Below are positions 43,958-46,702 of a DNA stretch of 64,000 nt, in pieces (the stretch's first letter is position 1; every line of letters starts with the position of its first letter). Under the pieces are notes generated by a model. It saw nothing but the letters and a program-made list of their open reading frames with translations. It searched no databases and was not told the DNA's origin. The position numbers and the translations under genes are program-made. The DNA comes from Halomonas sp. QHL1 (GTDB lineage Bacteria; Pseudomonadota; Gammaproteobacteria; Pseudomonadales; Halomonadaceae), in contig NZ_MINL01000001.1 of assembly GCF_001882345.1 (NCBI RefSeq), positions 2,711,357 through 2,775,356 of the forward strand, given 5' to 3'.

Positions 43958-44455
43958 ATGTTAAAACCGATGGCTTGGCTGGGTGGCGTACTTTTGATTG
44001 GCGCCATGTCTATTTCGATGGCGTCTATGGCGATAGCCCACGACGTACAAACAGACGCTATGCGTATCGCCCACCCCTTCGCGACACCCACCCCGCCAAG
44101 TGCTGTCAACGGCGCCGCCTACGTCGATATCACCGCCCTTTCAGACCCCGTTACCCTGGTTGGCGCAAGCAGCCCTGTGAGCAGCAACGTTGAGCTGCAC
44201 GAGATGCAAATGGACGGCGATATGATGCAGATGCGGCATGTGGAAGAGATTCGTATCGAGGCTGGGGAGACCTACACCATGCGTCCTGGTGGCGGCTTTC
44301 ACTTAATGTTGATTGGATTAACGGAGCCGCTAAAAGAGGGTGAGCAATTCCCCCTCACGCTCACCTTTGCTGAACAAGGTGATGTGGACATAGAGGTCTG
44401 GATCCAAAGCGCCCAGGAAGGCAGCAAAGCAGCTGATGGACACCATCACCATTAG
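43958..44455 (+). CDS. PCu(A)C-type periplasmic copper chaperone
   Basis: A 165-residue exported protein with a signal peptide (about 1-27, ending SMAIA). The Cu(I) motif H-x-M...M...H-x-M is met by VELHEMQMDGDMMQMRHVEE and GGGFHLMLIGL. The family delivers copper to cytochrome oxidase CuA centres. The C-terminus ends in four histidines (DGHHHH), which may add a metal-binding site. It stands alone after cysZ; the downstream 1 kb has no protein gene. Confidence 0.9.
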   Translation: MLKPMAWLGGVLLIGAMSISMASMAIAHDVQTDAMRIAHPFATPTPPSAVNGAAYVDITALSDPVTLVGASSPVSSNVELHEMQMDGDMMQMRHVEEIRIEAGETYTMRPGGGFHLMLIGLTEPLKEGEQFPLTLTFAEQGDVDIEVWIQSAQEGSKAADGHHHH

Positions 44456-44478
44456 TGGCTGGGGCTGTTGTCGCTTAT

Positions 44479-44508
44479 AAAAAACTAGACCCCGCAACAG
44501 CGGGGTCT
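44479..44508 (-). terminator. intrinsic terminator of sRNA copy A
   Basis: On the minus strand AGACCCCGC-TGTT-GCGGGGTCT, a 9-bp stem, is followed by AGTTTTTT. The T tract is on the minus-strand side only, so it does not serve the copper chaperone gene. Confidence 0.88.
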
Positions 44509-44672
44509 AATGACACTATGCTTTGACAATGACTAACGCTAGCTTCCTTTCCTTTTGCGGGACTCCAACCTTGGAATTTAACCCTCACCAGCGCTCTGAT
44601 TGTCGTTTGATTCATTCCTTGAATCGTCGTGCATCCGTATCGGTGTGACATGCTTTCGCATGTTTAACTTGC
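44479..44672 (-). ncRNA. candidate CsrA/RsmA-titrating small RNA, copy A
   Basis: About 194 nt read on the minus strand from a promoter at 44679-44706 to an intrinsic terminator at 44479-44508. GGA motifs recur: GATTCA-AGGAA-TGAATC is a hairpin with GGA in the loop (44609-44625), ACGGATG lies 5' of it, and TTGGAGTCC and AAGGAAAGGAAG lie 3'. An ACATGC-GAAA-GCATGT hairpin sits near the 5' end. The central domain closes by GACAAT/ATTGTC and AGCGCTGG/CTAGCGTT. Copy B 430 bases away conserves these pairings. The features fit RsmX/Y/Z or CsrB RNAs under GacA; no GacA upstream box was found. Confidence 0.68.
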
Positions 44673-44678
44673 ACTACA

Positions 44679-44706
44679 ATCGTAATGTATTTCTTCATAA
44701 TTGCAA
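44679..44706 (-). promoter_or_regulatory. sigma70-type promoter of sRNA copy A
   Basis: On the minus strand TTGCAA (44706-44701) is separated by 16 bases from TACGAT (44684-44679). This predicts a transcript start near 44672. The -35 differs from TTGACA at two positions and the -10 from TATAAT at two. Confidence 0.5.
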
Positions 44707-44911
44707 ACTTTTGTTACCAAACGTTTCTATTACCTTCAGCATGTGTCAAATTTTTTCTGTGTATTCCGCATGAGCACTAGTGCGACGCGTACTCTACCTG
44801 AATAAATACGTCTCATAACCGAAGGCAAAAACCTAGGCAGGTTTAGAGAGAAACGAGAAAAATGCTGGATAAGAGAGAGGGAGAGTAAATGTGGGGAGAA
44901 TAGTAGGTAGC

Positions 44912-44938
44912 AAAAAATTAGGCCCCGCTAGGGGCCCC
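44912..44938 (-). terminator. intrinsic terminator of sRNA copy B
   Basis: On the minus strand GGCCCC-TAGC-GGGGCC is followed by TAATTTTTTG. It gives copy B its own 3' end upstream of copy A's promoter, so the two RNAs are separate transcripts. Confidence 0.85.
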
Positions 44939-45198
44939 GATATCAGAATTGGCTACAGATAATGACTAACGCTAGCTTCCACTCCTTGTGCGGGACTCCA
45001 ACCTTGGAATTTACCCTGACTAACGTTCTGATTATCTATTGATTCATCCGTGAATCGAGAAAACATCCTTGCCTTCGCAACATCCTGTTGCTGGCATCTT
45101 CGTCCTACGAAGAAGCATTCAATGATATCTAAAAAGGTAAAAATATTAGATGTCGCTGTTTTTTCCTGAACAACATCATCTGTGTCGTAATGCGTCCT
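44912..45198 (-). ncRNA. candidate CsrA/RsmA-titrating small RNA, copy B
   Basis: Minus-strand RNA ending at a terminator at 44912-44938; the 5' end is uncertain (a TATAGT at 45210-45205 suggests about 45198). Successive hairpins present GGA in the loop: CTTCG-TAGGA-CGAAG (45098-45112), GCAACA-GGA-TGTTGC (45077-45091) and GATTCA-CGGA-TGAATC (45041-45056), with an unpaired AAGGATG between. The core (44958-45056) is about 80 percent identical to copy A, including AATTCCAAGGTTGGAGTCCC. This hairpin series is the hallmark of CsrB/RsmY-type RNAs that sequester CsrA/RsmA. Confidence 0.75.
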
Positions 45199-45415
45199 TA
45201 TCTAACTATATGCATCAAGCATTCCAAACAACCATAATAAAAATAAAATGGTTTAAAATCAATAATTTATTTAAAACGAACTTGTGCCAAAAATAGCTTT
45301 AATTACCAAAATACGTCGCCCAACACTGTGTAAAAATGGCACATGCGAAAAATCTCACCAATCTTGCATGCCAATATTGCACACTTCTACAAATGTTGTG
45401 CGGCGGGATGGTAAA

Positions 45416-46702
45416 TTAAACAAGACGCGAGGAGGGGAAGGCGCAGCGAAACAGCGCGCCCTTGCCGGGGTGAGACTCAATTTGCAGCTGCGCATCGTGA
45501 CGCAACAGCACATGTTTAACGATCGCCAGGCCTAAGCCTGTGCCGCCAGTCGCAGTGCTGCGCCCCTTATCGACACGGTAAAAACGTTCAGTTAGGCGAG
45601 GAATATGAACAGGATCAATCCCTTCACCGTTATCTTCCACCTCAATATAGCCGCCGCCAGTAGCGCTAGCTTTCCAGCGCAGTGTGATTTGGCTGCCTGC
45701 TGGCGTGTAGCGAACCGCATTAAAGGCGAGGTTAGAGACGGCGCTGCGAATTTCCTGTTCACTGCCCAACAGCCGCGCATCGCTCTCAAGCGCCACGGTA
45801 ATGGTATGACGCTGATGCGACAGGGCCAGCGCATCATCACACACGCTTTTTAGTAAAGGCTCGAGCGACAGCGGATGATGATCTTTACCGCCCTGGTCGA
45901 TCTCCAAACGCGAAAGCAACAATAAATCGTTGACCAGATTCTGCATCCGCTGGGTCTGTTCCTGCATTTGTTGGATGCTGCGACCCAATCGTGGCGGAAG
46001 TTGATCAGCAATATCGCTGTAGGTTTCCAAATAGCCCGAAAGGACGGTCAGAGGAGTGCGTAGCTCGTGGGAGACGTTGGCGACAAAGTCACGCCGCATC
46101 TGCTCAAGGCGATGCAAACGGGTAATATCCCTGGCCATCACCAAGCGCTCGTCGTCACCGTAAAGGGTAATTTGATACTGCAGGATGCGCCGTTCATCAA
46201 TGGGAGAAATGAGCGTTAACGGCTCACTGTAGTCACGCGCATTAAAGTAGCTAATAAAACTAGGGTCGCGCAGCAGGTTGGTAATGTGCTGACCACGGTC
46301 GTGGGCGGTTTGTAGCCCTAGCATGGCGGTAGCGGCGCTGTTCCACCACTCCAGGTCTCCGTGGCGGTCAAGCATAACCACGCTATCGCGCATTGCTTCA
46401 GACGACTCTTGAATACGCGCCAAGGTAGCGCGCAGACGGCTCTGGGTAATGCGCTGACTTTTTTGATAGCGGTATAAACGATCGAATAGCTCGCCCCACA
46501 TTCCGCTGGCGGCAGGCGGCTCATCGTGAGGATGGAGGGTGAGCCACCGATAGAGTTCGCGTAACTGTCGCAAGTGGTAAAACAGGCATCCCGAAAGCCC
46601 TGCCGCGAGCCCCAGCCCTGCCGAGCCCAATAGCCAGCCTAGGCAAGTGCCCAGCGTGGCCAGCCACGCTATTCGCCACAGCTCACGACTCCATAAACGC
46701 AC
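45416..46702 (-). CDS. phoR: phosphate-regulon sensor kinase
   Basis: Membrane histidine kinase, 428 residues. Two hydrophobic segments near the N-terminus (about 10-42) form the anchor, a PAS-like domain covers about 95-190, and the H box MRRDFVANVSHELRTPLT has H212. N, G1 and G2 boxes follow (NLAFNAVRYTP, VEDNGEGID, GGTGLGLAIVKHVL). The start is GTG at 46702, two bases after the phoB stop, so the two are co-translated. Activates PhoB when PstSCAB-PhoU signals phosphate shortage. Confidence 0.95.
   Translation of the reverse strand: MRLWSRELWRIAWLATLGTCLGWLLGSAGLGLAAGLSGCLFYHLRQLRELYRWLTLHPHDEPPAASGMWGELFDRLYRYQKSQRITQSRLRATLARIQESSEAMRDSVVMLDRHGDLEWWNSAATAMLGLQTAHDRGQHITNLLRDPSFISYFNARDYSEPLTLISPIDERRILQYQITLYGDDERLVMARDITRLHRLEQMRRDFVANVSHELRTPLTVLSGYLETYSDIADQLPPRLGRSIQQMQEQTQRMQNLVNDLLLLSRLEIDQGGKDHHPLSLEPLLKSVCDDALALSHQRHTITVALESDARLLGSEQEIRSAVSNLAFNAVRYTPAGSQITLRWKASATGGGYIEVEDNGEGIDPVHIPRLTERFYRVDKGRSTATGGTGLGLAIVKHVLLRHDAQLQIESHPGKGALFRCAFPSSRLV

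Follow-up and report, generated by a model that had tools for sequence, protein, structure and literature searches.

Among described regulatory RNAs, the closest in design to the locus discussed here are the CsrA sponges CsrB/C and RsmX/Y/Z. CsrA requires a GGA, and the upstream GacA/UvrY box, TGTAAGN6CTTACA, is defining for RsmX/Y/Z and CsrB/C. Other regulatory RNAs, such as GlmY and Qrr, are sigma54-dependent. In Pseudomonas, two papers describe CrcZ and CrcY as CbrB- and sigma54-dependent decoy RNAs that sequester Hfq (PMC6296734; PMC8871633). Messenger RNAs can also antagonize CsrA through their leaders, the examples being flaA of Campylobacter jejuni and fimAICDHF of Salmonella (PMC4894983). 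For Halomonas anticariensis, a table in a 2020 comparative-genomics paper gives the CsrA antagonist RNA as “Unknown” (PMC7366521). Here, we analyze a pair of non-coding units in a 64,000-nucleotide stretch of the genome of Halomonas sp. QHL1 (the window), and compare them with these systems. Our best reading, which we consider reasonably probable from the comparison of sequences, is that they include a second CsrA-titrating RNA, controlled by sigma54 and a two-component system, that would have arisen from an mRNA.

The two related units occupy 45200-44478 on the minus strand, each closed by a terminator, and are flanked by phoR (45416-46702, minus strand) and pcuC (43958-44455, plus strand) (Table 1). 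The gap between phoR and pcuC contains short mechanical open reading frames (ORFs) only, none with signs of being a gene. A sequence-only reading of this stretch had described two tandem, sRNA-like minus-strand units ending in terminators; the sequence and a terminator scan agree with that description, and the three hairpins that it quoted are all found in the minus-strand sequence. The scan gives three terminator-like sites in 1.7 kb versus 1.7 expected from shuffles, the two on the minus strand at 44937-44920 and 44511-44484, and both copies fold better than their shuffles.

Table 1. Features of the two units and of the region upstream of copy 1, in window coordinates.
Feature	Position	Strand	Evidence
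Upstream half of enhancer region, AAGTGTGCAATATTGGCA, aligned with AAGTGTGYCA..GGCA in relatives	45369..45386	-	Alignment of 50 upstream regions; function predicted
UAS CATGTGCCATTTTTACACA, predicted enhancer-binding-protein site	45327..45345	-	Consensus scan, alignment
IHF-like site TAAATTATTGATT, between UAS and promoter	45257..45269	-	Perfect consensus match; putative binding
Sigma54 -24/-12 element TGGAATGCTTGATGCA	45211..45226	-	Spacing to UAS as in relatives; predicted start ~45200
RNA copy 1, ~290 nt, non-coding in window	44912..45200	-	Sequence, fold z -3.1, relatives, GGA loops, conservation
GGA hairpin CTTCG-TAGGA-CGAAG, copy 1	45098..45112	-	GGA-in-loop count
GGA hairpin GCAACAGGATGTTGC, copy 1	45077..45091	-	GGA-in-loop count
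GGA hairpin GATTCA-CGGA-TGAATC, copy 1	45041..45056	-	Loop count; homologous hairpin covaries
Copy 1 core: helix AACGTTAG/CTAGCGTT around GGG/CCC and hairpin TCCA-AGGT-TGGA, then GGA-rich single strand	44966..45027	-	Alignments, covariation, G033
GGA hairpin CAC-AAGGA-GTG (copy 1 type, within core)	44980..44990	-	GGA-in-loop count
Intrinsic terminator, copy 1	44912..44937	-	Terminator scan; terminator pairs covary
RNA copy 2, paralogue, putative 5' end inside 3'-end remnant of ORF2	44478..44735	-	Fold z -5.0, relatives, ORF2 deletion, conservation
Copy 2 hairpin CATGC-GAAA-GCATG, without GGA	44649..44662	-	
Sole GGA hairpin of copy 2, GATTCA-AGGAA-TGAATC	44609..44625	-	GGA-in-loop count
Copy 2 core module	44533..44595	-	Alignment, covariation
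Intrinsic terminator, copy 2	44479..44511	-	Terminator scan

Copy 1 carries four GGA triplets in hairpin loops, a number attained by 8 of 500 dinucleotide shuffles (mean 0.94), and copy 2 carries one versus 0.52, which by itself is no excess (208 of 500 shuffles reach one). Across 49 distinct homologous 5' parts, 128 GGA fall in loops, compared with 18.1 ± 5.0 in 20 shuffles; no other of the 64 trinucleotides is as enriched as AGG and GGA. The motif CANGGATG, which we take to resemble the CsrA binding consensus, occurs 72 times in 53 units (0.74 in shuffles). Among these units, the nine of copy-2 type, distinguished through their core motif, have exactly one GGA loop each and the other 44 have two to five; that one copy is poorer in GGA hairpins, as the sequence-only reading noted, is therefore a conserved trait. 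The stems covary as well. In 23 aligned single-copy units (22 distinct), 90.9% of the cells of three GGA hairpins are paired, with 8 double-sided changes versus 2.1 ± 1.3 in shuffles, and in 49 sequences the core and terminator are 98.3% paired, with 51 such changes versus 10.7 ± 2.9 (none of 500 shuffles reaches the observed value in either case; the shuffles keep the relatedness of the sequences and these comparisons are therefore support rather than probabilities). Sliding the partners by one to three columns lowers pairing to 27-40% in the GGA-hairpin alignment and to 29-60% in the core/terminator alignment. The middle (second) GGA hairpin is the weakest, with 78% of cells paired and an outer pair that does not form in 14 of the 22 sequences. 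Since covarying CsrA-type GGA hairpins sit on sRNA-like units, the best inference is that the RNA would work like a CsrA sponge.

The proposal that the units are RsmX/Y/Z-like stands as far as these hairpins and their covarying stems go, but not as regards family membership. At gathering score, Rfam gives no family in the window, none of the CsrB, CsrC, RsmX, RsmY and RsmZ covariance models included, and at a relaxed threshold it gives sub-threshold matches only, several of them on a terminator; on the minus strand, RsmY reaches 16.1 bits at best versus the 57 needed. The CsrB, CsrC and RsmX models were run on the window, and those of RsmY and RsmZ also on the whole genome, where nothing exceeds the cut-off and 14 control genomes show the same noise in 13 and 12 cases, respectively. 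No GacA box lies upstream of the units between 44478 and 46691, and the window as a whole holds 13 matches with up to three mismatches (16.6 expected). Genome-wide, the box occurs with at most one mismatch at 14 positions, 5 of them perfect (1 in the reversed control), of which six were fetched and inspected. At G000:C1:3595760 (L203:761-1120) a perfect box is followed ~170 nt downstream by a GGA-rich RNA with a terminator, ~10 kb from csrA, which is present in this genome. This RNA has 11 GGA in the 340 nt scanned, is conserved in the relative G017 and is likewise missed by Rfam; we classify it by the box, the density of GGA and the terminator, because its loop count (2 GGA in loops versus 0.97) is not significant by our simple measure. 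We regard it as the likely Gac-controlled sponge of the genus. Hence, although GGA hairpins, terminators, duplication and weak sub-threshold RsmY matches are all what duplicated but otherwise ordinary Gac-controlled RsmX/Y/Z sRNAs would display, that explanation of the units is very improbable, given the silence of Rfam at gathering score, the lack of a GacA box upstream of them, the GGA-rich RNA behind a perfect box elsewhere, and the sigma54 architecture found here instead.

That architecture points to an enhancer-type sigma54 promoter in front of copy 1. In the aligned upstream regions (50 regions, among the rows listed), the UAS CATGTGYCATTNNTRCACA is accompanied by an IHF-like site and a -24/-12 element. 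In the window, the consensus scan yields a single UAS match, with no mismatch although three were allowed. A looser UAS pattern matches the QHL1 genome at this locus only (0 in the reversed control) and gives 16 matches in 11 of 17 relatives: 13 at the phoR-linked locus, one before an ORF3-type gene on another contig and two elsewhere. The distance from UAS to -24 is 107-111 nt in 43 pairs from 29 of 30 loci (109 nt in the window); the diverged UAS of L071 was missed by the spacing scan, and the first unit of L050 has a GG-N9-GC spacing. Scanning with the IHF consensus places a perfect site 43-44 nt before the -24 in 17 of the 43 promoters, the window included (0.7 in shuffles), and a relaxed form in 32 (6.2 in shuffles). 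The -24 of the window reads TGGAA rather than TGGCA, a -24/-12 match is by itself no rarity (4 in the window versus 2.76 expected), and between UAS and -24 the window shares 78% identity with the relative G033, no better than the spacer between the units (81%), with the UAS itself unchanged. Copy 1 has the GG-N10-GC element and conserved UAS that mark sigma54-dependent regulatory RNAs, at the spacing usual for the family. Copy 2 of the window, from which the UAS, IHF site, -24/-12 element and ORF2 start have been deleted, does not: neither UAS nor sigma54 element is found before it, nor does a simple promoter scan give a sigma70 promoter.

In 24 of 30 loci, an ORF of ~99-122 amino acids (with longer start choices for some) lies between this promoter and the RNA. 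Its stop codon precedes the core motif by 113-218 nt in 23 of the 24, the core of the remaining one being missed by the pattern, and ORF and RNA would share one transcript. A codon comparison for 18 of the 24 loci gives a median dN/dS of 0.14 (25 pairs with dS <1) or 0.29 (all 121 pairs), and the product behind the signal peptide has a net charge of -18 to -26 (18 loci). The small proteins have no NCBIfam match and only sub-threshold noise in Pfam. A paralogous ORF is found in the second units of many loci, and in five loci that we read further downstream there are such small-protein genes without the GGA RNA. Extra sigma54-driven small-protein genes also stand in tandem downstream of phoR as third units of L046, L047, L048 and L050; those of L046 and L047, read beyond the ORF, are without GGA RNA. 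In L044, L053 and other relatives, the 5' leader of unit 1 forms a stem AAGGAAG/CTTCCTT with an ACCGC loop that could pair, pseudoknot-like, with a downstream GCGGT before the small-protein start codon.

Six of the 30 loci (the window, G033 and L068-L071) have the RNA and lack the ORF. The window and G033 have lost the ORF of unit 1 by deletion, and the deletion in unit 2 takes the leader and most of ORF2 along with the promoter; G290, which misses the unit-2 promoter and retains a shortened ORF1, is an intermediate. The RNA bodies are conserved despite these losses. Between the window and G033, identity is 99/102 for the copy 1 hairpins, 73/73 for its core, 107/110 for the copy 2 hairpin plus core and 96/107 for the 5' part of copy 2, and 133/164 (81%) for the spacer, against 97-100% for hairpins and cores. 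Versus G290, the copy 1 hairpins match at 72/102 positions, its core at 65/70 and the copy 2 hairpin plus core at 96/109, and the spacer at 73/166 (44%) compared with 88-93% for the core parts, the spacer figure being rough because the promoter part aligns poorly with G290. Because of this conservation relative to both G033 and G290, we reject decay as the sole explanation of the non-coding units.

A DNA search finds matches in 31 of 58 genomes, among them 30 of 37 from the genus of the window; the 31st, from another family, is weak and partial (E 0.0094) and is regarded as chance. phoR lies upstream in all 29 fetched stretches, as in the window, and pcuC falls inside the fetched stretch in 10 of the 29. 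The exact core pattern retrieves 34 stretches from a named genome collection, 33 from records of Halomonas, Vreelandella or Halovibrio and one a chance hit; L079, a chance match in Parasutterella, was dropped. A covariance model built from 49 units and run with stricter filters, which can lose weak matches, detects the RNA in 69 of 275 genomes of the family, all within the genus of the window (69 of 82), and in none of 193 genomes from 23 sister genera. Two copies are seen in 22 of the 69 positive genomes and one copy at that threshold in the rest, so that the tandem duplication described for the window holds for part of the genus. The RNA is not seen in the 550 nt after phoR in 12 of the 13 RNA-negative genus members (the 13th has no phoR match) or in seven genomes of other genera; in most of the negative genomes read past phoR, the neighbouring gene follows closely. 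In a phoR tree (30 RNA-positive, 12 negative and 4 outgroup rows), one clade comprises 29 of the 30 positive rows, with L068-L070 at its base and L071 outside it.

The genome encodes six sigma54 activators. The most likely activator of copy 1, judging from its distribution and gene neighbourhood, is the NtrC-family protein G000:C1:1762338-1763750, which has receiver, AAA+ and Fis-type domains and whose gene is preceded by one for a histidine kinase. It is present in 68 of the 69 RNA-positive genus members (missing in G262, which is 80% complete, and broken in G290), in 2 of the 13 RNA-negative members, both times as a partial match, and, beyond the genus, in 61 of 193 genomes. The Fisher p of this co-occurrence (6.5e-11) is not used as a probability given phylogenetic clustering, and the association may reflect few events, because all but one of the 30 RNA-positive rows fall into a single clade of the phoR tree. 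We take another protein, L154, to be CbrB-like. CbrB is not our first choice, because its published site, TGTTAC-N12-14-GTAACA (PMC8871633), differs from the UAS; the UAS gap of 11 nt does not fit a NifA-like site, TGT-N10-ACA (PMC6296734).

A composite UAS/sigma54 pattern is present in 99 of the 275 genomes, the genus accounting for 66 (8 matches in the reversed control), and in six sister-genus genomes, four of them read in sequence, it lies 0.9-1.2 kb from the regulator gene. In the QHL1 genome, an acidic lipoprotein gene beside the regulator (L212:3445-3882) has UAS-like and IHF-like sites upstream and a degenerate sigma54 element with a poor -12; related operons adjoin the regulator in other genera. 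Away from phoR, L138 (G024:C9:993104) shows a second UAS and sigma54-like site followed by a GGA-bearing stretch, possibly a member of the same regulon. Of 41 pattern matches in sister genera, 12 were read, picked for resemblance to the UAS or nearness to the regulator; among the other 29, G081 at 313326 and G189 at 616538 were placed by coordinate, and many of the remaining 27 are probably chance. All 12 stretches run into genes whose products are small, strongly acidic lipoproteins or exported proteins, and each stretch has an ORF whose signal peptide is close to MMSKEFLKKIGILGVSFGLIASPLAFA. Their non-coding parts, cut by hand into 14 segments of which five are close homologues from one genus and two have no GGA hairpin, contain 16 GGA hairpins versus 4.6 ± 2.0 (0 of 300 shuffles), whereas four coding segments contain 4 versus ~4.7, which is no excess. 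The simplest account would be a sigma54/two-component regulon of dual transcripts, each encoding an acidic exported protein and carrying an untranslated part that binds CsrA, with the 3' part left as a free-standing sRNA wherever the ORF disappeared.

The position of the hairpins in these operons bears on another explanation, in which they are translation-control sites of small-protein mRNAs, themselves targets of CsrA, and the window units are leftovers of gene loss. In most sister-genus operons that we read, the GGA hairpins do lie between two ORFs, where translation control is possible, and in the window the ORFs are lost. In the genus of the window, however, the RNA lies behind the ORF, and in the sister-genus genome G248 the single ORF is followed by four GGA hairpins before the terminator (a count that none of 300 shuffles attains; the other segments are singly not significant). 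Together with the presence of the RNA without an ORF in 6 of 30 loci, and with hairpins and cores kept far better than the spacer between the window and G033, this makes the leftover explanation improbable.

The ~65-nt covarying core poses a different question. In alignment A1, 31 of the 35 invariant columns fall in the core, making it more conserved than the GGA hairpins, although its invariance is inflated because all 49 rows were excised by the core pattern; L047, L051, L056, L061, L062, L065 and L067 (7 of 30 loci) have no row in it, as do single copies elsewhere. The loop of the core hairpin is AGGT in nearly all A1 rows. Units outside the pattern have TGGT, CGGT or GGGT, and the AAGGA stretch varies too, GGT being constant in those read. 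The core hairpin CCA-AGGT-TGG (45027-44966 and 44595-44533) resembles a CsrA hairpin with GGA turned to GGT. CsrA titration does not explain this conserved core, whose hairpin loop has GGT and not GGA. If the RNA were instead a structured sRNA from a 3'UTR with a main task other than CsrA titration, its core binding a different protein or base-pairing with mRNAs and its GGA hairpins being secondary, this would account both for the conservation and for the retention of the core in copy 2 beside just one GGA hairpin. We nevertheless think it unlikely: GGA loops and CANGGATG are strongly enriched, their stems covary, and the sister-genus operons, in which the core model has no match, carry GGA hairpins as well.

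We therefore return to titration of CsrA by a sigma54-controlled RNA as the reading that we prefer. Transcription of copy 1 would start at a sigma54 promoter dependent on IHF and on an enhancer-binding response regulator, presumably G000:C1:1762338-1763750 together with the histidine kinase whose gene immediately precedes it. On a signal to the kinase, the RNA would be made and terminated behind the core module, its GGA loops would bind CsrA dimers, and CsrA target mRNAs would be freed. It would thus form a second input to the Csr system, beside a Gac-type input through the separate GGA-rich RNA near csrA. The RNA itself would be the former 3' end of the mRNA for the small acidic exported protein, left as a pure sRNA in the window lineage when the reading frame was lost. 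Copy 2, a conserved duplicate with one GGA hairpin and without the sigma54 promoter, probably has a narrower or different role. A wider version of the proposal, that the Halomonadaceae have a dedicated two-component/sigma54 system of dual-function mRNAs, coding for a tiny, extremely acidic exported protein and with CsrA-sponge untranslated parts, from which deletion of the coding part at least once (in the window lineage), and possibly in two further lineages, produced a pure sponge sRNA, is tentative, and we put it a little short of an even chance.

If the dual-function reading is true, one cell would control CsrA through two unrelated signal pathways, and a way in which CsrB-type RNAs are born would become visible. 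For the genus, the analysis offers two candidate antagonist RNAs, a GGA-rich one near csrA with a GacA box in front of it and another, distinct from it, under putative sigma54 control, and the latter would tie the Csr system to another signal. Furthermore, a series of genomes in which an mRNA appears to turn into a regulatory RNA makes the origin of sponge RNAs testable in culturable halophiles.

A literature search in which subscription journals were thinly covered found no report of the present combination, and the locus shares features with each of the systems introduced above. With CsrB/C and RsmX/Y/Z it has in common several GGA in hairpin loops (copy 1), an intrinsic terminator, non-coding units in the window and a csrA gene in the genome; unlike them, the units have no Rfam match or GacA box, and copy 1 has a putative sigma54/IHF/UAS promoter, a proposed origin in an mRNA 3' end and a long conserved core. 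With CrcZ/CrcY it shares the promoter logic of a two-component enhancer-binding protein, IHF, sigma54 and a decoy RNA, whereas its UAS CATGTGYCATTNNTRCACA differs from the CbrB sites TGTTAC-N12-14-GTAACA, its candidate activator is another protein, and it presents CsrA-type GGA hairpins rather than an Hfq decoy. With flaA and fimAICDHF it would share the use of an mRNA region as CsrA antagonist; those are 5' leaders, whereas here a 3' part with several GGA hairpins, apparently sigma54-driven, would play that role, and in some species the RNA is present without the ORF.
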